This document shows, one piece after another, positions 1,833-8,731 of a stretch of DNA of 11,733 nucleotides; within the stretch, counting starts at the first letter, position 1; each line of letters opens with the position of its first letter. Source of the stretch: an uncultured bacterium (GTDB lineage: Bacteria > Patescibacteriota > Minisyncoccia > CAIUEV01); the NCBI GenBank assembly GCA_903898335.1, contig CAIUEV010000028.1, positions 1 to 11,733 of the forward strand, read 5' to 3'. The notes below the pieces were generated by a model. The model had not been told where the DNA came from. It worked only from the letters and a program-made list of their open reading frames with translations, and made no database searches. Both the position numbers and the translations under genes were made by a program.

Positions 1833-1862
1833 TTGACTTGCTTTTATTTTTTTGACCATAAT
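1833..1862 (+). promoter_or_regulatory. Sigma-70-type promoter for the S23-type gene
   Basis: TTGACT (1833-1838) and CATAAT (1857-1862) are separated by 18 bp, a good match to the -35/-10 consensus. Transcription would start near 1869, giving an untranslated leader of about 30 nt before the ATG at 1900. This also argues against the TTG at 1852, which lies upstream of the predicted transcript start. Prediction by eye only. Confidence 0.55.
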
Positions 1863-1899
1863 TCACAATTTAATAATTTTAAAAAATACACCTTACAAA

Positions 1900-2244
1900 A
1901 TGAAGTTTAACTCTTTTGAGGAAATCTTAGCTTATCAAAAATCTGAACAATTAGCTTTAAAAATTTACACTCTTTTACGTGATTGTAATGATTTTGGATT
2001 TAAAAATCAAATTCAAAGAGCAGTAGTCTCAATAAGTAATAACATTGCCGAGGGTTTCGAGAGAAAAGGAAATAAAGAATTTAGGCAATTTCTGTTTATT
2101 GCAAAAGGATCATGCGGAGAAGTTCGATCCATGTTAAGACTTTCTCTCAAGCTTAACTATGTTTCTGAAGGAAATTTTAATGTGCTGCATAATCTATCGG
2201 TTGAAGTGTCTAAAATGCTCTCAGGATTAATAAAAAAATTATAG
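1900..2244 (+). CDS. S23-type four-helix bundle protein (23S rRNA-intervening-sequence protein family)
   Basis: A 114-residue all-helical protein. It shows the family pattern: an opening 'FEEILAYQKSEQLALKIY', then 'QIQRAVVSISNNIAEGFER' at about residues 41-59, 'KEFRQFLFIAKGSCGEVRSML' at about 64-84, and a final helix with 'SKMLSGLIKKL'. This is the family of the protein encoded inside 23S rRNA intervening sequences, related to Avd of diversity-generating retroelements. Members form pentameric bundles, but free-standing copies have no agreed function. The ATG at 1900 is chosen because homology begins there; a TTG at 1852 in the same frame lies inside the promoter. It is the only plus-strand gene in the left half, is flanked by dispersed repeats, and has about 31% G+C by hand count against roughly 45% in neighbours, suggesting a separate origin. 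Confidence 0.85.
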   Translation: MKFNSFEEILAYQKSEQLALKIYTLLRDCNDFGFKNQIQRAVVSISNNIAEGFERKGNKEFRQFLFIAKGSCGEVRSMLRLSLKLNYVSEGNFNVLHNLSVEVSKMLSGLIKKL

Positions 2245-2286: not shown

Positions 2287-2352
2287 TTTATGAACTTTAT
2301 GAACTTTATGAACTTTATGAACTTTATGAACTTTATGAACTTTTTAACTTTA
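2287..2352. repeat. 9-bp tandem array (TTTATGAAC)n overlapping the murC 3' end
   Basis: Six perfect copies of TTTATGAAC fill 2287-2340, followed by two decayed units, TTTTTAAC (2341-2348) and a TTTATCAAC-like unit that merges into coding sequence. The last nine bases of the murC reading frame, including its TAA stop at 2335-2333, lie inside the perfect array, and the codons just before lie in the decayed units. The AACTTT core is shared with the 8/9-bp units of the other repeat blocks, in inverted orientation. Perfect copies suggest recent slippage. Confidence 0.95.
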
Positions 2353-3889
2353 TCAACTCCTCCCCCACTCGAAAGCCGTCTCCCGCTCCGAGAGTCAAAA
2401 AAACGGTCGGCCGAGCAAAACTCAGCTGAGAAAAATAAGCGATAGCTTCACTCTGATTAGGAAAGTAAACGGCTTTTTTCTTTTCGGGAATGAGCGCCAC
2501 CAAATCTCGAGCACTCACTGTGCCGACACTTTCCCGAGCGGAAGAATAAATCTCAAGAACACCGATTTCGTCGGCTTGTTCAAAAGCGTTAGCAAATTCT
2601 TTCAAGAATTTTTCGGTGCGCGAAAAAGTGTGAGGCTGAAAAAGAGCCACCAAACGATGCCTGGGTAAAGTTTTTTTCACCGCCCGCAGCGTGGCTTCCA
2701 CTTCGCTCGGGTGATGAGCAAAATCGTCGAAAATCAAAGTTTTTTTGATTTTTCCCTTGAATTGCAGCCGTCGTTCCGTTCCAAGAAAAGTCATCATGGA
2801 TTTCTCAATCACTCCGACTAATTGTTTTAGCCAAGCTATTTGATCAGAGATATTGGACGGCAAAGGTCGGTCAGACCAAATTTTCAATTCTTTGTTGAAA
2901 GCGATTTTTTGCTTCGAATCGGATTGCCTCAACTGAAGCATAAAATTAAAAATAAAGGCCAGAACGGCGACGCTATTCATCGCATTGTGATCGCCCGTCA
3001 ACGGCGAATCAAACTTAACGAAAAGACCGTTTTTTGACGGACAGGGTAGATTTTTGTCCTTCAGCTTGATTTTTAAAGTTATTTTCGAAACAAAACGCTC
3101 CCCGTTTTTCAAGCGACTGACAATTTTTTTCAAACAAAAATCGGCGTTCTTCCCCTTACCAAAAGTGACAATGCGATCGGTTTCGGAAATATTTTTTAAA
3201 ATCTGACGACAGTGTGCATTGTCTTGATTAATAATTAAAAATCCTTGCGTTACTGAATTTTCAGACCAGCGCCGCACAAAATCTTGAAAGGCGGCCGTAT
3301 ATGCTTCCGGTGTTGGATAAAAATCGGGATGATCGTAATCGATATTGTTTAGGATAATCGATCCCGGCTCATAAAAACGCAATTTATTTTGATGTTCGTC
3401 CGCCTCGATCACAAAAATATCACTCTCTCCCGCCAAAGAATTGCTCTGCCAATTGGAAACTTTACTGCCGATCACGGCGCTGGGCGAAAAACCCAAGTCG
3501 GCTAAAGTGTTGGCCAGCAGAGCGGAAGTCGTTGTCTTACCGTGTGATCCGGCCACCGCGACACCTTCCGATCGATTAAAAAACTCCGCCAAAGCCTCCG
3601 GATAGGTCAGGACGAGAAAACCTTTTTCCATCGCCGCCTTAATTTCCGGATTGGTTTCCGCTGAAAAGGCGGTTGAATGAACAACTACCTCCGTTTCCGC
3701 CGGAATATTGGAGGCGTTAAATTTCTCCTTAAATTCAATCCCCAATTTTTTCAGCACTTCATCCGTAAAAAATTTTTCTTCCGTGTCGGAACCGCTGATT
3801 TTTTTACCTCGCTTCAAAAGATAGCCGGCCAAAGCGGTCATTCCCGCTCCTTTAATGCCCACCAGATGAAAGTGAGTTTTATCGTCCAT
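2333..3889 (-). CDS. murC: UDP-N-acetylmuramate--L-alanine ligase (MurC)
   Basis: A 518-residue Mur ligase that adds L-alanine to UDP-MurNAc with ATP, the first peptide step of peptidoglycan precursor synthesis in the cytoplasm. The N-terminal domain has the MurC nucleotide-binding signature GIKGAGM (11-17). The central domain has the ATP loop SHGKTTT (115-121), EADE (162-165), NNIDYDHPD (181-189) and GDHNAMN (299-305). The C-terminal domain has DDFAHHP (388-394), FQPHTFSRT (417-425) and LTLGAGD (498-504). It is longer than usual MurC proteins because about 35 extra residues lie between GDHNAMN and ERRLQ (372-376). The related recycling ligase Mpl is the main alternative, but the overall pattern favours MurC. 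It follows the ligase-protease gene by 25 nt. The ATG at 3889 has no Shine-Dalgarno, and the C-terminus ends inside a tandem repeat. Confidence 0.92.
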   Translation of the reverse strand: MDDKTHFHLVGIKGAGMTALAGYLLKRGKKISGSDTEEKFFTDEVLKKLGIEFKEKFNASNIPAETEVVVHSTAFSAETNPEIKAAMEKGFLVLTYPEALAEFFNRSEGVAVAGSHGKTTTSALLANTLADLGFSPSAVIGSKVSNWQSNSLAGESDIFVIEADEHQNKLRFYEPGSIILNNIDYDHPDFYPTPEAYTAAFQDFVRRWSENSVTQGFLIINQDNAHCRQILKNISETDRIVTFGKGKNADFCLKKIVSRLKNGERFVSKITLKIKLKDKNLPCPSKNGLFVKFDSPLTGDHNAMNSVAVLAFIFNFMLQLRQSDSKQKIAFNKELKIWSDRPLPSNISDQIAWLKQLVGVIEKSMMTFLGTERRLQFKGKIKKTLIFDDFAHHPSEVEATLRAVKKTLPRHRLVALFQPHTFSRTEKFLKEFANAFEQADEIGVLEIYSSARESVGTVSARDLVALIPEKKKAVYFPNQSEAIAYFSQLSFARPTVFLTLGAGDGFRVGEELIKLKSS

Positions 3890-3914
3890 AAAATTTATTG
3901 TTCAAAAATTACGT

Positions 3915-5378
3915 CTACTGTTCTTTCTTGAGCCCGACATCAATGATAAAAGAACGCAGACTTTTGCGACCGATAATTACCGGGTAACGCAGATGCTTGC
4001 GTCTGACGATAGTCGCCTTGGTTGATATGGGAATTTGGTCCAGCACGATTTTCGTTTCGATTACGGGCCGAATGCTCAATCCGTTAGAAGAATAAACCAA
4101 CTTGACTTTCTTTAATAGTCCATTTGATCCGGCGATAATTTCATCAATATGTTCATCGCGAATTTTTTTAATTGCCTCAAATTGATATTCGATTGATTCA
4201 TTGGGAAAAATTTGCGAAGCGTGATAGTAAGGAAAATATTTTTTAAAAACAGTCAAAGCCTCTCCGTAGCCCAATTCGATGGCCAAATCTTCATCAATGG
4301 AAACATAGTAAGCGCCCGTGTCCAATTTGGCATCCACCTGCATCCTGCCTCGAGGCCCGTAAATGGAAATTTTCTTGAAAATTCCCACCATGGTTTTACC
4401 TGTTGCCTCCTCAACTTCATCCTCGATTTCTCCGCCAAAAAGATCCTGACCGATGCGCACCGCCTTTTTGGTTGTGCTTATTTTCAGCCCCTTGACTCTC
4501 TCCAGACGATCTCTTAATGGCGCTTGATTGGCATTTTGAATGGAAAGACCGGGTCTGACATTGATTTCAGCCACTACCGGACCTCGATCACGATCAGTCA
4601 TAATATCGACACCCAAAAAGCCCAGCCCACTCGCCTCTTGGCAATTAACGGCAATTTCCAACGATTCTTTCCAGTAAGGAATTCGGATACCGGCCAAGGG
4701 CAAACGAGTTCCGGGAACAAAATCCAGATGGTAATCCTGCTGAGTGGCCAAATTTCTTGAGATAGCGTGAGTTGTCACCCCTGTCGCCATGTCGATACCG
4801 ACGCAAATTCCTCCCAGATGCAAATTGGCTCGTCCGCCCGAAGCCTCCGTTGGCAGGCGCAACATAGCCATAATGGGCACACGATTAAAAACAATGATTC
4901 GCAAATCGGGAATTCCGCGGTAGCTGTACGGCTTAAAAACTCGTGACAGTTTTACTCGCTCCTCGAAAAAAGCCTTATCCGGCTGGTTGGATAAAGAATA
5001 AGTACCTTCAAAAATATTACGGATATGCATCTTCAGATCTTCTATTGTAACTTCTCTTTTATCCGCTTTCACCCAATTGCCCGTTTTTTTGTTGCGACCG
5101 TAAACCACAACGATGCCTTCACCACCCAGGCCACGATTGGGTTTCAGGACAAAGCTGTAAGGCAGCTGGTCCCAATCAAAATTCTCCAGCTCCTTGAGGC
5201 TGCGAATACGCGCAATCAGGTTCGGTACCGGCAAATCGGCCTTCATCAAAGCTCTCTTGGAAAGCATTTTATCGTCCGCAATCTTTCTGGCTTCCTTCGG
5301 ATTGTAGGGTCTGACATAAAGCAGATTTCGGGCGTTCATCCCGAGCACCAATCTACTTTTTTCGAGGTAATTCAACAT
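3915..5378 (-). CDS. RimK/glutamate-ligase-like ATP-grasp enzyme fused to a retropepsin-like protease domain
   Basis: A 487-residue two-domain protein. Residues about 1-300 form an ATP-grasp ligase of the alpha-L-glutamate-ligase-like type: KPNRGLGGEGI (79-89) is the ATP-binding loop, PDLRIIVF lies at 157-164, and the metal-binding end is VVAEINVRPGLSIQNANQ (268-285). Such enzymes join an amino acid to a carboxylate through an acyl phosphate. After an acidic linker (315-326), residues about 330-487 match the retropepsin-like 'RimK-associated protease' family (Pfam calls it putative zinc protease): KLDTGAYYVSI with the catalytic-type DTGA at 353-356, and the closing PVIIGRKSLRSFIIDV (466-481). 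In many bacteria these two activities are encoded by separate neighbouring genes. Its start overlaps the upstream 7TM gene by 26 nt and murC follows at 25 nt, so the three are probably one operon. The substrate is unknown. Confidence 0.88.
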   Translation of the reverse strand: MLNYLEKSRLVLGMNARNLLYVRPYNPKEARKIADDKMLSKRALMKADLPVPNLIARIRSLKELENFDWDQLPYSFVLKPNRGLGGEGIVVVYGRNKKTGNWVKADKREVTIEDLKMHIRNIFEGTYSLSNQPDKAFFEERVKLSRVFKPYSYRGIPDLRIIVFNRVPIMAMLRLPTEASGGRANLHLGGICVGIDMATGVTTHAISRNLATQQDYHLDFVPGTRLPLAGIRIPYWKESLEIAVNCQEASGLGFLGVDIMTDRDRGPVVAEINVRPGLSIQNANQAPLRDRLERVKGLKISTTKKAVRIGQDLFGGEIEDEVEEATGKTMVGIFKKISIYGPRGRMQVDAKLDTGAYYVSIDEDLAIELGYGEALTVFKKYFPYYHASQIFPNESIEYQFEAIKKIRDEHIDEIIAGSNGLLKKVKLVYSSNGLSIRPVIETKIVLDQIPISTKATIVRRKHLRYPVIIGRKSLRSFIIDVGLKKEQ

Positions 5379-6012
5379 TTTTTATAACGTCACGAAATCT
5401 TAAGTATTCATAAAGACGCAGCCCTTGCCATCGACCGATAAAAATATTCAGCAAAACAATGAATAGCACGGTTACCGGATAATTGAGGACAAGAACTTGA
5501 AACGCCTCCCATTTAACTACGAAATAACAAATCACGGCCAACAAAATTGTCTCCAAAGCCAGAAAGAAAGCCGTTCGAAAACCTTTCTCGATTTGCGCCA
5601 CCACGAATTTTTCCACAATCGTAATCATGATTAAAATCGGAAAAATCGAAACGCTAGCCAGACCGGTACGATTGAAGACTCCTCCCACCACCAGAAAAAT
5701 CAAAACCGAGATGGCCGTCACCGAGAGCATCATGGCCGTTCGCGACATATAAAGCAGCTGAAAATTACGCAAAAGATATCTCATCCCCAGCGCCACCAGC
5801 AGAACCACGGTAAAAATGGCGATCCCATATTTCAGAGTGGTCGCCAGAAAAGCCACCGCAATAACGGATGGCGTGTAAATACCGAAGGCTTTAATTCCCA
5901 CGACTTGTCGGGCAAAAGCAATGATGGTCAAAATCACCGGATACATCAGCACATAAATCACCGTTTCTACCGGTACCCCCTGACCAATGGCCAGATCAAC
6001 TAAATTAGGCAT
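5353..6012 (-). CDS. Seven-helix membrane protein, 7TM_transglut-type, lacking the transglutaminase-like domain
   Basis: A 219-residue protein with about seven hydrophobic segments. It matches the membrane domain usually found at the C-terminus of 'inactive transglutaminase fused to 7TM' proteins: ARQVVGIKAFGIYTPSVIAVAFL (34-56, given here as the family's R.V.G..tFG..TP...A.aF pattern), SIFPILIMITIVEKF (122-136) with a nearby E and R (142-146), and the ending GRWQGLRLYEYLRFRDV (193-209). The extracellular transglutaminase-like part is missing, and no upstream gene supplies it. In known loci this module sits beside the ATP-grasp ligase and retropepsin-like protease, exactly as here. ATG at 6012 is preferred; the preceding in-frame TTG (6015) is an alternative. 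It probably recruits, senses or exports the ligase product at the membrane, which is an inference. Confidence 0.85.
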   Translation of the reverse strand: MPNLVDLAIGQGVPVETVIYVLMYPVILTIIAFARQVVGIKAFGIYTPSVIAVAFLATTLKYGIAIFTVVLLVALGMRYLLRNFQLLYMSRTAMMLSVTAISVLIFLVVGGVFNRTGLASVSIFPILIMITIVEKFVVAQIEKGFRTAFFLALETILLAVICYFVVKWEAFQVLVLNYPVTVLFIVLLNIFIGRWQGLRLYEYLRFRDVIKNVELPRKK

Positions 6013-6015
6013 CAA

Positions 6016-6088
6016 TCTACTTTAAAAATAGAAAAACAATTTTAGAAATTTGATTTCATTCTATGCTATTTTTATTTTTTTTATAAAT
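6016..6088. other. AT-rich divergent intergenic region upstream of the 7TM operon
   Basis: This very AT-rich stretch separates the minus-strand 7TM-ligase-murC operon from the plus-strand mraZ cluster. The minus-strand promoter must lie here, but no clear -35/-10 pair is visible. A TTGTCA on the minus strand (6095-6090) overlaps the mraZ -35 box on the other strand, and TAGAAT-like hexamers occur further downstream at poor spacing. Confidence 0.4.
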
Positions 6089-6116
6089 TTGACAAGAAAA
6101 AGTTGTGGTCTATTAT
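6089..6116 (+). promoter_or_regulatory. mraZ promoter (-35 TTGACA, -10 TATTAT)
   Basis: A perfect TTGACA (6089-6094) is followed after 16 bp by TATTAT (6111-6116); a TATAAA at 6114-6119 gives a 19-bp spacing as an alternative. Transcription would begin near 6122-6126, right at the first MraZ-box repeat, so a bound repressor would cover the start point. This is the only strong promoter seen for the plus-strand division cluster. Confidence 0.7.
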
Positions 6117-6122
6117 AAAACT

Positions 6123-6158
6123 AAAGTGGAGGAAAGTGGGGACAAGTGTTAAAATGTG
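6123..6158 (+). promoter_or_regulatory. MraZ operator: four AAAGTG-type boxes with 10-bp period
   Basis: AAAGTG occurs at 6123-6128 and 6133-6138, CAAGTG at 6143-6148 and AATGTG at 6153-6158, each separated by four bases. MraZ proteins are known to bind direct repeats with this spacing upstream of their own gene (AAAGTG[T/G] units in mycoplasmas, TGGG-type units in E. coli), contacting one repeat per helical turn through a ring-shaped oligomer. Its place between promoter and mraZ indicates autoregulation. The fourth, weaker box includes the GTG at 6156 that would otherwise look like a start codon. Confidence 0.85.
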
Positions 6159-6179
6159 TTTCTTAAAACCCAAAAATCA

Positions 6180-6614
6180 ATGTTTATCGGAGAATACCAA
6201 CATTCAATCGACAAAAAGAGACGCATCGCCATCCCCGCCAAATTCCGCGGTTCTTTTAAAACAAAAGCAATAATCACTCGGGGACTGGACGGCTGTCTTT
6301 TCGTTTACCCCACCGCAACGTGGGAAAAACTGGCGGAAAAACTCGGCTCTCTGCCTTTGGGTGAAAGAAAGATGCGGCAGTTTGTTCGACTGACTCTCTC
6401 GCAAGCCATTGAGACGGAAGTTGATAAACAGGGACGAATCCTTATTCCCAACTACCTGAATGACTTCGCCGATCTTAAATCCGAAGCGGTTGTCACCGGT
6501 CTTTACGACCGAGTGGAGATCTGGAATCGAGAAAGATGGAAGAAACAGACAGCTGAAGCGGAAAAAGACAAAGAAGAAATGGCGGAGGAGTTGGGTAAAC
6601 TTGGCATCTACTAA
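6180..6614 (+). CDS. mraZ: Transcriptional regulator MraZ
   Basis: A 144-residue protein, normal for MraZ, with two SpoVT/AbrB-like DNA-binding repeats. The first opens with MFIGEYQHSIDKKRRIAIPA and continues into KFR (1-23); the second has VDKQGRILIPNYL (81-93). MraZ binds repeated boxes upstream of the division/cell-wall cluster and controls its transcription. A run of four such boxes lies just upstream. The ATG at 6180 is chosen because MFxGEY is the conserved N-terminus; an in-frame GTG eight codons earlier (6156) lies inside the operator. No Shine-Dalgarno precedes the ATG. The last 25 residues are a charged helix typical of the family. First gene of the plus-strand set mraZ-rsmH-ftsL. 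Confidence 0.96.
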   Translation: MFIGEYQHSIDKKRRIAIPAKFRGSFKTKAIITRGLDGCLFVYPTATWEKLAEKLGSLPLGERKMRQFVRLTLSQAIETEVDKQGRILIPNYLNDFADLKSEAVVTGLYDRVEIWNRERWKKQTAEAEKDKEEMAEELGKLGIY

Positions 6615-7659: not shown

Positions 7660-8043
7660 ATGAACCAGCCAATTCTGTTTTATCAAAATTTACCGCAGAA
7701 ACAAAAAAATCGAAAAAGATTTTCGATTCTGCCCAGGTTTAAAGTCGGCCAAACTTCTTTGATTGTCGTTACTGTCCTGATTTTTCTTTTAATGAGTTTA
7801 ATCTATTTGATTCAAGCCAATTCAACGGCCACCAAAGGCTACGAAATTGAAAAAGAGCAAGAAAGAATCAAAAAACTGGAATCTCAAGGAGAAAAACTAG
7901 AACTGGAAATGGCGAAAATTCGCTCCACTCGAGAGTTGAATGAAGTTCCCAACCAACTCAACATGAAACCCTCTCCGGAAGGAGAAACTCTAAAGTTTGT
8001 TTCTTTGGACCAAAAAGATTCCTTGGCGAAAAAAGAGGATTAA
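7660..8043 (+). CDS. ftsL: FtsL-like cell division protein
   Basis: A 127-residue bitopic membrane protein: a basic cytoplasmic head with several K/R (10-29), one membrane helix (about 33-52, LIVVTVLIFLLMSLIYLIQA) and a periplasmic coiled-coil stretch (about 59-90, rich in E/K with I/L at heptad positions). This layout, size and position directly after rsmH are those of FtsL, which with FtsB/DivIC and FtsQ/DivIB activates septal peptidoglycan synthesis. Sequence conservation in this family is poor, so the call rests on architecture and place. 'LNMKPSPEGETLKFVSL' near the C-terminus is like the short tail seen in FtsL. The last 86 bp overlap, on the opposite strand, the end of the response-regulator gene. 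No ftsI follows. An FtsB-like partner is encoded 0.8 kb away on the other strand. Confidence 0.75.
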   Translation: MNQPILFYQNLPQKQKNRKRFSILPRFKVGQTSLIVVTVLIFLLMSLIYLIQANSTATKGYEIEKEQERIKKLESQGEKLELEMAKIRSTRELNEVPNQLNMKPSPEGETLKFVSLDQKDSLAKKED

Positions 8044-8731
8044 ACGCTTCCGAATAAACTCCGAATAAATAACCGCGACCGTGGATCGTGTGAATCAACT
8101 TGTCGGACGATGGCAAACCGCCATCGATTTTTCGACGCAGACTCAGCATGTGGACTTCCAAAGTATTGGCCGAGCCTATATAATTGATATCCCAGACGGA
8201 TTCCAAAATAACTATTTTATTCAAAACAATTCCTCGATTGAAAATCAAATATTGCAGCAAATCGAATTCTTTCTTGCGCAAACGAATCTCTCGATTACCT
8301 CGAAAAACTTTATACCTTCTGAAGTCAACCGACAAATCGGCCAAACGGTAATTTTCATCCAACAAATCCCCCTTCTTCTCCCAGCCGTTAGTCACCTTTA
8401 TCTTGGCTAAAATTTCCTGAAAGGAGACCGGCGCCAACATAATATCGTCCACCCCCAAATCGTAGAGACGCAATTTGGTTTCCGAATCAATTTCTTCCGC
8501 TATATAGATCAGAAAACCCTTAAAAATTCTGGAAAGCGTTTTTTCAATAAAACGCTGCAGCTCGGGCGCCTCACCACCACCGATAATTACCAGATCGTAA
8601 TTGTTTTTTCGCAACATCCACTCTCCTTTTTTTATTCCCCTCACTCTGTCTCCCTCAAAACCCGCTCGCCAGAAACCGTCAATATAGCTTTCCGGCAGTT
8701 GATTGGCATTGTCGATCGTCAAGAGACGCAT
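7958..8731 (-). CDS. OmpR/PhoB-type regulator with degenerate (non-phosphorylatable) receiver domain
   Basis: A 257-residue protein. Residues 1-112 have the receiver-domain pattern (LLTID at 3-7, YDLVIIGGG at 45-53, FLIYIAEE at 73-80, GVDDIMLAPV at 93-102), but the residue matching the phospho-acceptor Asp is Gly51, the second acidic residue after the first strand is missing, and the lysine of the usual 'KP' is Ala100. So it is probably a pseudo-receiver, not controlled by a histidine kinase in the normal way. Residues about 133-224 are an intact winged-helix DNA-binding domain (RKKEFDLLQYLI, VHMLSLRRKID, IHGRGYLF). A 34-residue tail after GYLF is unusual and overlaps ftsL antisense. No kinase gene is nearby. 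It lies 89 nt after the ftsB-like gene and may belong to the same transcript. Targets are unknown. Confidence 0.87.
   Translation of the reverse strand: MRLLTIDNANQLPESYIDGFWRAGFEGDRVRGIKKGEWMLRKNNYDLVIIGGGEAPELQRFIEKTLSRIFKGFLIYIAEEIDSETKLRLYDLGVDDIMLAPVSFQEILAKIKVTNGWEKKGDLLDENYRLADLSVDFRRYKVFRGNREIRLRKKEFDLLQYLIFNRGIVLNKIVILESVWDINYIGSANTLEVHMLSLRRKIDGGLPSSDKLIHTIHGRGYLFGVYSEAFNPLFSPRNLFGPKKQTLEFLLPERVSC

Follow-up and report, generated by a model that had tools for sequence, protein, structure and literature searches.

A seven-transmembrane protein and an ATP-grasp ligase-retropepsin fusion in Patescibacteria: a putative compact relative of the Rlo system

An 11,733-base contig from an uncultured member of the Patescibacteriota (CAIUEV010000028.1; hereafter the window, meaning this whole stretch) carries on its minus strand a gene for a seven-transmembrane (7TM) protein, a gene for an ATP-grasp ligase fused to a retropepsin, and murC. 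By their sequences, the first two encode homologues of RloB and of RloC-RloA of the gammaproteobacterial rlo operon, in a rearranged and compact form. We give an even chance to the reading that these two proteins form a membrane-docked synthetase and trimmer of polyglutamate-like chains, with murC beside them by accident. A previous sequence-only reading had described the three genes as tightly packed, and its coordinates, the 26-nt overlap between the 7TM and fusion genes (5353-5378) and the 25-nt gap between the fusion gene and murC were all confirmed. The domains it had named (7TM_transglut, ATP-grasp, retropepsin and MurC) were borne out by profile scores, and the association of 7TM, RimK-like ATP-grasp and retropepsin modules is, as it had said, a known one. 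The genome is 961 kb long in 148 contigs and 97% complete, and the closest named relatives retrieved are mostly labelled Moranbacteria or Patescibacteria. The pair and its parts are:

5353..6012, minus strand: gene of the 7TM membrane protein, an RloB-type core without the transglutaminase ectodomain (219 residues from the ATG; PF14402)
3915..5378, minus strand: gene of the RloC-RloA type fusion enzyme, N-terminal ATP-grasp ligase and C-terminal retropepsin (487 residues; PF14397 and PF05618)
4434..5348, minus strand: ATP-grasp domain, residues 11-315 of the fusion
3936..4415, minus strand: retropepsin domain, residues 322-481 of the fusion, with profile matches to RloA structures 9g58/9g59
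4311..4322, minus strand: retropepsin catalytic motif DTGA, residues 353-356, kept in 24/24 aligned fusions
3999..4070, minus strand: segment from R437 to R460, the counterparts of RloA R114 and R137, both Arg in 24/24

The 7TM protein, for which a TTG at 6015 offers an alternative start one codon upstream of the ATG, matched PF14402 with 104.2 bits (cut-off 25), as did all 27 sequences of the family, and its AlphaFold2 model has a mean predicted local distance difference test score (pLDDT) of 89.4. It aligns only to positions 314-507 of the 508-position RloB model NF052267, and shares 28% identity with the C-terminal part of Aeromonas RloB. The fusion matched PF14397 over residues 17-296 (220.4 bits) and PF05618 over residues 344-481 (39.0 bits). 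Its ATP-grasp domain is of the RloC type, being 37% identical to Aeromonas RloC, a protein encoded in a rloA-rloB-rloC row (L193), and its closest folds are ArgX, a C-terminal amino-acid ligase, and RimK, a poly-alpha-L-glutamate synthetase. Residues K79, D158, R160, D258, E271 and N273, which we take to be the catalytic ATP-grasp positions of the superfamily, are each present in 24/24 aligned fusions.

The protease half is conserved as well. The retropepsin domain matched 9g58 and 9g59 by profile (E 1.5e-7 and 1.4e-7), two structure codes that belong to RloA in the excerpts of PMC12239564. Across the same 24 fusions, the DTGA motif starting at D353, R437 and R460 are invariant and K351 is found in 23. 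In the alignment with 9g58/9g59 the three basic residues fall on RloA K46, R114 and R137, with the R437-R460 spacing of 23 being that of R114-R137, and the two arginines also align with R202/R225 of Aeromonas RloA. These RloA residues are the ones reported to coordinate polyglutamate; in Pseudomonas aeruginosa, changing R114 or R137 weakened cleavage, and a reporter had to carry more than six glutamates to be cleaved, as those of 8 or 10 were (excerpts of PMC12239564). Beyond the aligned set, DTGA or DSGA occurs in 80/80 named-locus and 23/23 class-relative fusions with a visible stop codon (sets defined below) and, among fusions of the wider phylum, in 12 of 13, including one identified by eye (L175, DTGA). 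This last homologue is split in two open reading frames (ORFs; L175:2132-2575 and 2618-3517, plus strand), by a frameshift or an assembly error. In the window's genome PF05618 matched only at the fusion and no separate retropepsin was found, while a stand-alone second retropepsin gene lies right after the fusion on one contig of a relative (L116:7131-7667, plus strand, which is the same as L042:5432-5968, minus strand).

To describe the neighbourhood of the pair we used two samples: 80 named loci, the best 80 of 379 confirmed, retrieved with the fusion alignment, and 26 class-relative loci, from the 7TM-bearing genomes among 93 related ones. The two sets have seven contigs in common and are therefore not independent. 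Flanks reach at most about 6-9 kb, and many stop early at a contig end; each count omits the loci whose flank was too short for it, and the denominators give the number that remained. Genes were named by similarity to representatives, and it is these representatives only (YebC, RuvC, GroEL, YdjC, GNAT, MATCAP, penicillin-binding protein (PBP), glycosyltransferase and ATP-grasp) that were checked against Pfam. The 7TM gene lies directly upstream of the fusion on the same strand in 79/79 named loci readable for 700 bp or more upstream, 72 of them seen in ORF calls and seven by profile search on the same strand, having earlier been lost to an ORF-overlap filter. The same pairing holds in 25/25 class-relative loci with that much upstream sequence, and a fusion-type ATP-grasp gene adjoins the 7TM gene in all 26, three of which are cut by contig ends before the retropepsin. 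Five relatives (L033-L036 and L041) share even the 26-nt overlap. The 7TM protein and the fusion are thus one conserved unit, paired far beyond chance. The 7TM gene itself was found in 27 of the 93 genomes, the window's own included: in 4/4 of its family, 5/5 of a sister family and 18/84 of the rest.

Two domain fusions tie the modules together. The first is the ATP-grasp-retropepsin enzyme of the window. The second was found on a plasmid of Halobacterium sp. DL1, where a 584-residue ORF (L192:3164-4918, plus strand), preceded by transposase genes and missing from the PLSDB gene table, joins 7TM_transglut (51-243) to ATPgrasp_ST (286-557). These are the families of the window pair, here in one protein that, in contrast to the pair, contains no retropepsin. 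This fusion is a good indication that 7TM protein and ligase work together as a single machine.

RloB carries an inactive transglutaminase domain, which the window protein lacks: its gene starts only 143 bp from the mraZ ORF, and no RloB-like transglutaminase domain was found. The domain (PF14400) scored above cut-off in none of the 93 genomes; no control genome matched, yet the model does recognise Aeromonas RloB. A match below cut-off in the window's genome (19.2 bits) was dismissed, as it lies opposite a longer ORF. The short form of the 7TM protein is the rule in the window's class (26/26) and among the 79 found in the 80 named loci (78, the exception being L131). Sampling the wider phylum gave a different picture. 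We found 110 matches in 109/379 Patescibacteria genomes, with frames of at least 400 residues in 57, 280-399 in 17 and fewer than 280 in 36; in the best-scoring 29 loci (own excluded), the 7TM domain is preceded by more than 200 residues in 26, by 61-200 in two and by 60 or fewer in one. A PKD domain was recognised in 7/10 long proteins scanned, L131 included, and a transglutaminase domain in none of the ten. Domain matches thus point to a PKD ectodomain in many other Patescibacteria at the place where Rlo has a transglutaminase. Such an exchange of ectodomains (transglutaminase, PKD or none) makes 7TM and ligase look like the core, to which the transglutaminase has been added.

Most simply, the fusion would be a self-limiting synthetase and trimmer of polyglutamate-like chains docked on the 7TM protein. 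Together the two would make up a single module at the membrane, related to RloB-RloC-RloA but more compact. The N-terminal RimK-like domain would use ATP to build alpha-linked chains of glutamate (or of an acidic residue like it), either free or on the C-terminus of an acceptor. Since the ligase needs ATP, it should sit on the cytosolic side of the membrane. The architecture of the fusion would place the retropepsin there too, presumably as a homodimer cutting long acidic runs back; with a cytosolic protease, the chains must be reachable from inside. The protease may also stimulate the ligase, as RimB does RimK, a combination that yields free polyglutamate, up to 28-36 residues long, which later disappears (excerpts of PMC11957791). 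The 7TM protein, its basic C-terminus in the cytosol, would dock the enzyme and pass on or sense the product. In Pseudomonas, a protease-less strain regains full growth in low salt when rloB or rloC is lost, and its other defects are partly relieved (excerpts of PMC12239564), suggesting that the ligase and the 7TM protein make what the protease removes. By homology with these phenotypes, a role in osmotic or envelope homeostasis is plausible for the window pair. Disruption of a transglutaminase-7TM gene in a transposon screen of another bacterium altered the output and size of membrane vesicles (excerpts of PMC12096838), again an envelope effect.

Several known systems resemble the pair in part. 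With rloABC of Pseudomonas and other Gammaproteobacteria (L193 being the Aeromonas example), it shares a homologous 7TM core, the 37% identical ligase, a homologous retropepsin with DTG and the polyglutamate-binding arginines, and tight same-strand genes. It differs in gene order (7TM then ligase-protease, instead of A-B-C), in the missing transglutaminase domain, and in having its retropepsin at the C-terminus of the ligase and hence in the cytosol, while RloA is separate and secreted with a signal peptide. The RimBK hybrid of Desulfotalea psychrophila likewise holds a RimK-like ligase and a retropepsin in one polypeptide, with the retropepsin at the N-terminus (excerpts of PMC11957791) rather than the C-terminus; the window ligase, for its part, is of the RloC type and has a dedicated 7TM partner. 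RimK and RimB are similar in fold, ATP-grasp residues and polyglutamate logic, whereas the fusion has a membrane partner and falls far below the cut-offs of both models (18.2 bits against 331 for the RimK equivalog NF007764; 18.7 against 200 for RimB). The poly-gamma-glutamate synthase PgsB-PgsC (CapB-CapC) pairs a glutamate ligase of Mur-type fold with a small membrane protein. Its likeness to the window pair is limited to this general idea of an ATP-dependent glutamate ligase with a small membrane protein; the ligase fold is different. The possibility that the 7TM protein is a PgsC/CapC protein failed in both comparisons made: none of the 27 7TM sequences matched PF14102, even at E 10, and hhalign gave a probability of 0.2%, with the low power of a single CapC sequence. 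In one Patescibacterium (G098), a CapB-type gene resembling Mur ligases precedes a CapC-family gene that matches CapC twice in tandem (L056:4243-6566, plus strand); a 7TM gene is present in this genome too (L172).

Around the pair, the window contains:

2333..3889, minus strand: murC, 25 nt downstream of the fusion, probably outside the system (TIGR01082)
6013..6155, no strand: intergenic region between the divergent 7TM and mraZ genes, with a promoter-like site; divergence in 3/3 family relatives
6156-6614, plus strand: mraZ, divergent from the 7TM gene

The identity of MurC is clear (TIGR01082 equivalog, 391.8 bits against a cut-off of 335.1), and its spacing suggests that it may be co-transcribed with the pair. 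The sequence-only reading had taken this as functional coupling, and from it a link to peptidoglycan, which by its own terms would fall if the adjacency proved unique to this genome. Tabulating neighbours, we found murC next to the pair in 1/27 7TM-bearing genomes, the window's own. In the other 26, the best match to the MurC model, on which these distances rest and which is below the MurC cut-off in five (G028, G053, G069, G071, G092), lies on another contig in 24 and at about 335 kb (G047) and 177 kb (G021) in the remaining two. Contig breaks limit the 24 other-contig cases; the first downstream gene could be read in 21/26 and was never murC. MurC was also seen in 0/80 named loci and 0/26 class-relative loci within the available flanks, and in the window's family it is groEL (PF00118) that follows the fusion in 2/2 readable genomes. 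Hence neither the coupling nor the peptidoglycan link could be maintained, and murC looks like a chance neighbour. Divergence from the mraZ-rsmH-ftsL row, which begins at 6156 (ftsL being called from weak, below-cut-off matches), recurred in 3/3 family members; elsewhere it was absent from every locus readable for 2.5 kb or more upstream. A sigma-70-like site (11/12) lies in the intergenic region at 6089-6116 (plus strand); ten promoter-like sites were found against a mean of 6.0 in shuffles, so most must be chance.

The commonest order in relatives is yebC-ruvC-7TM-fusion, followed by at least one further ATP-grasp ligase, sometimes a MATCAP-type carboxypeptidase, and a class A PBP. Among named loci we counted ruvC in 62/73, yebC in 48/69, an ATP-grasp gene immediately downstream in 66/76, a MATCAP-type gene in 6/57 and, where at least 5.5 kb could be read downstream, a class A PBP within 6 kb in 48/57 (on the same strand in 47). 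Class relatives gave 17/23 for ruvC, 10/21 for yebC, 10/21 for the next ATP-grasp gene and 9/15 for PBP. The PBP counts looked strong, but fell as independent evidence of a coupling to PBP1a, because the same order exists without the 7TM gene. In 20 relatives lacking it (hand-picked from 66, roughly in handle order; two stretches shorter than 7 kb), ruvC lies near PBP in 16, with nothing or one opposite-strand gene between them in 13 of the 16, and yebC or ruvC lies near PBP in 18. Proximity to the PBP thus reflects an inherited gene order in which the module has been inserted, and says little on function.

The extra ATP-grasp genes are another matter. They form one similarity group (128 genes in 69/80 named loci) and were not recognised between ruvC and PBP in those 20 relatives, so that they belong to the module. 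In the window's genome, one other RimK-type place was found (at C6); no GraspC-type ligase was found in a search without control, and no MATCAP in one where no control matched either. In three loci, MATCAP-family (PF08014) carboxypeptidase genes stand in a row with RimK/TTL-like ATP-grasp ligases downstream of the fusion (L124:8461-9807, L073:10805-12142 and L071:9953-10861), recalling the eukaryotic tubulin tyrosination pair. In two more (L088:7480-8742 and L112:3886-5157), a Mur-ligase-like gene adjoins a RimK-like ATP-grasp gene, a split arrangement that resembles the two ligase halves of cyanophycin synthetase.

What these data say of function can be weighed against four other readings. 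If the ligase added residues to a muropeptide or lipid-linked precursor that the protease then trimmed, in coupling with MurC, one would understand the 25-nt gap in the window, the PBP downstream in most relatives, the cell-shape and cell-wall-antibiotic defects of Pseudomonas rloA mutants (excerpts of PMC12239564), and the ATP-grasp fold itself, shared with D-Ala-D-Ala ligases. However, murC adjacency in one genome of 27 and in none of the 80 loci, the ruvC-PBP proximity in 16/20 relatives without 7TM, and protease residues suited to acidic alpha-peptides make peptidoglycan tagging very improbable. An envelope role, which the sequence-only reading had also proposed, does not run through murC, and is plausible instead through the Pseudomonas phenotypes (PMC12239564, in part). 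It is also unlikely that the fusion works on a cytosolic protein, ribosomal or other, adding and removing glutamates in the manner of RimK-RimB, with the 7TM protein only localising or sensing. In favour of this, RimK ranks with the closest folds, the architecture places the retropepsin in the cytosol, RimBK hybrids are known (excerpts of PMC11957791), and yebC and ruvC, upstream in most relatives, show no envelope bias. Yet both Rim models score far below cut-off, the membrane partner is constant (79/79), and a rimB deletion showed no genetic interaction with rloA mutants (excerpts of PMC12239564).

We also doubt that the ligase takes some other acidic or amino substrate and makes from it a short peptide or a cofactor, in the way ArgX/LysX act on LysW, with the retropepsin as a maturation protease and the additional ATP-grasp enzymes and MATCAP carboxypeptidases of relatives extending or shortening the product: the window's family keeps the pair alone at the locus, so that the extra ligases need not be linked, and the polyglutamate-binding arginines are invariant (24/24). 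Distinctly unlikely, too, is a self-contained, membrane-bound synthase for export: the ATP-grasp domain would polymerise glutamate, or something similarly acidic, in alpha linkage, the retropepsin would meter the product by setting chain length, and the 7TM protein would pass the polymer across the membrane.

The synthetase/trimmer reading has its own difficulties, and the following observations weigh against it. Fold searches gave no confident structural relative for the 7TM protein, the ligase stays under the cut-off of TIGR02291 (266.1 against 314.2), and Aeromonas RloA has an Arg at the K46-equivalent position. Between one and four further ATP-grasp genes lie downstream in 51/57 relatives and are absent at the window locus, which may mean that lineages differ in their product. 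Pseudomonas RloA is secreted and the window protease would be cytosolic, so that the latter would meet its target on the other side of the membrane. RimBK cleaved polyglutamylated RpsF, while glutamylation of RpsF was not seen (excerpts of PMC11957791). Finally, in one relative (L186:198-1553, minus strand) INTG replaces DTGA, no Pfam protease domain is recognised and the ligase is kept; this protease is probably dead, judging by its motif, suggesting that protease activity is dispensable in some relatives.

Two further genes of the window were noted. At 7958-8731 (minus strand), convergent with ftsL, lies a gene for a response-regulator-like protein with a clear winged-helix domain and no Pfam receiver-domain match, possibly a receiver without phosphorylation site. 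A 23S rRNA-intervening-sequence protein (PF05635, 112.7 bits) is encoded at 1852-2244 (plus strand), between murC and a gene for a polysaccharide/MurJ-like flippase.

The components described here and their association are already known; the 7TM/ATP-grasp/retropepsin association was reportedly first described, probably, by Iyer et al. in 2009, and part of the apparent novelty may already be in print. Among the literature matches listed, with subscription papers mostly outside their scope, no paper treats this fusion in Patescibacteria, and none reports the order of domains in the fusion, a cytosolic position of the protease, the exchange of ectodomains, a 7TM-ligase protein in an archaeon or so broad an occurrence in Patescibacteria. 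A published survey placed 96% of RloB matches in Proteobacteria (excerpts of PMC12239564); 109 of 379 sampled Patescibacteria genomes and an archaeal plasmid widen this range for RloB-type proteins. Fusion-bearing records labelled Micavibrio, Elulimicrobium and Fimivivens (L091, L068; P0041) may be mislabelled bins or a real spread beyond Patescibacteria. The pair bears on the substrate of Rlo and on the role of its 7TM protein, since it packs the three activities of that system into two proteins. A single enzyme that holds ligase and protease brings these matters within reach of an assay in a tube, and the fusion implies a substrate accessible from the cytosol. If the export reading were true, the pair would parallel, with an ATP-grasp enzyme, the poly-gamma-glutamate synthase that is built on a Mur ligase, and such a synthase would be present in more than a quarter of the sampled Patescibacteria, and in haloarchaea.

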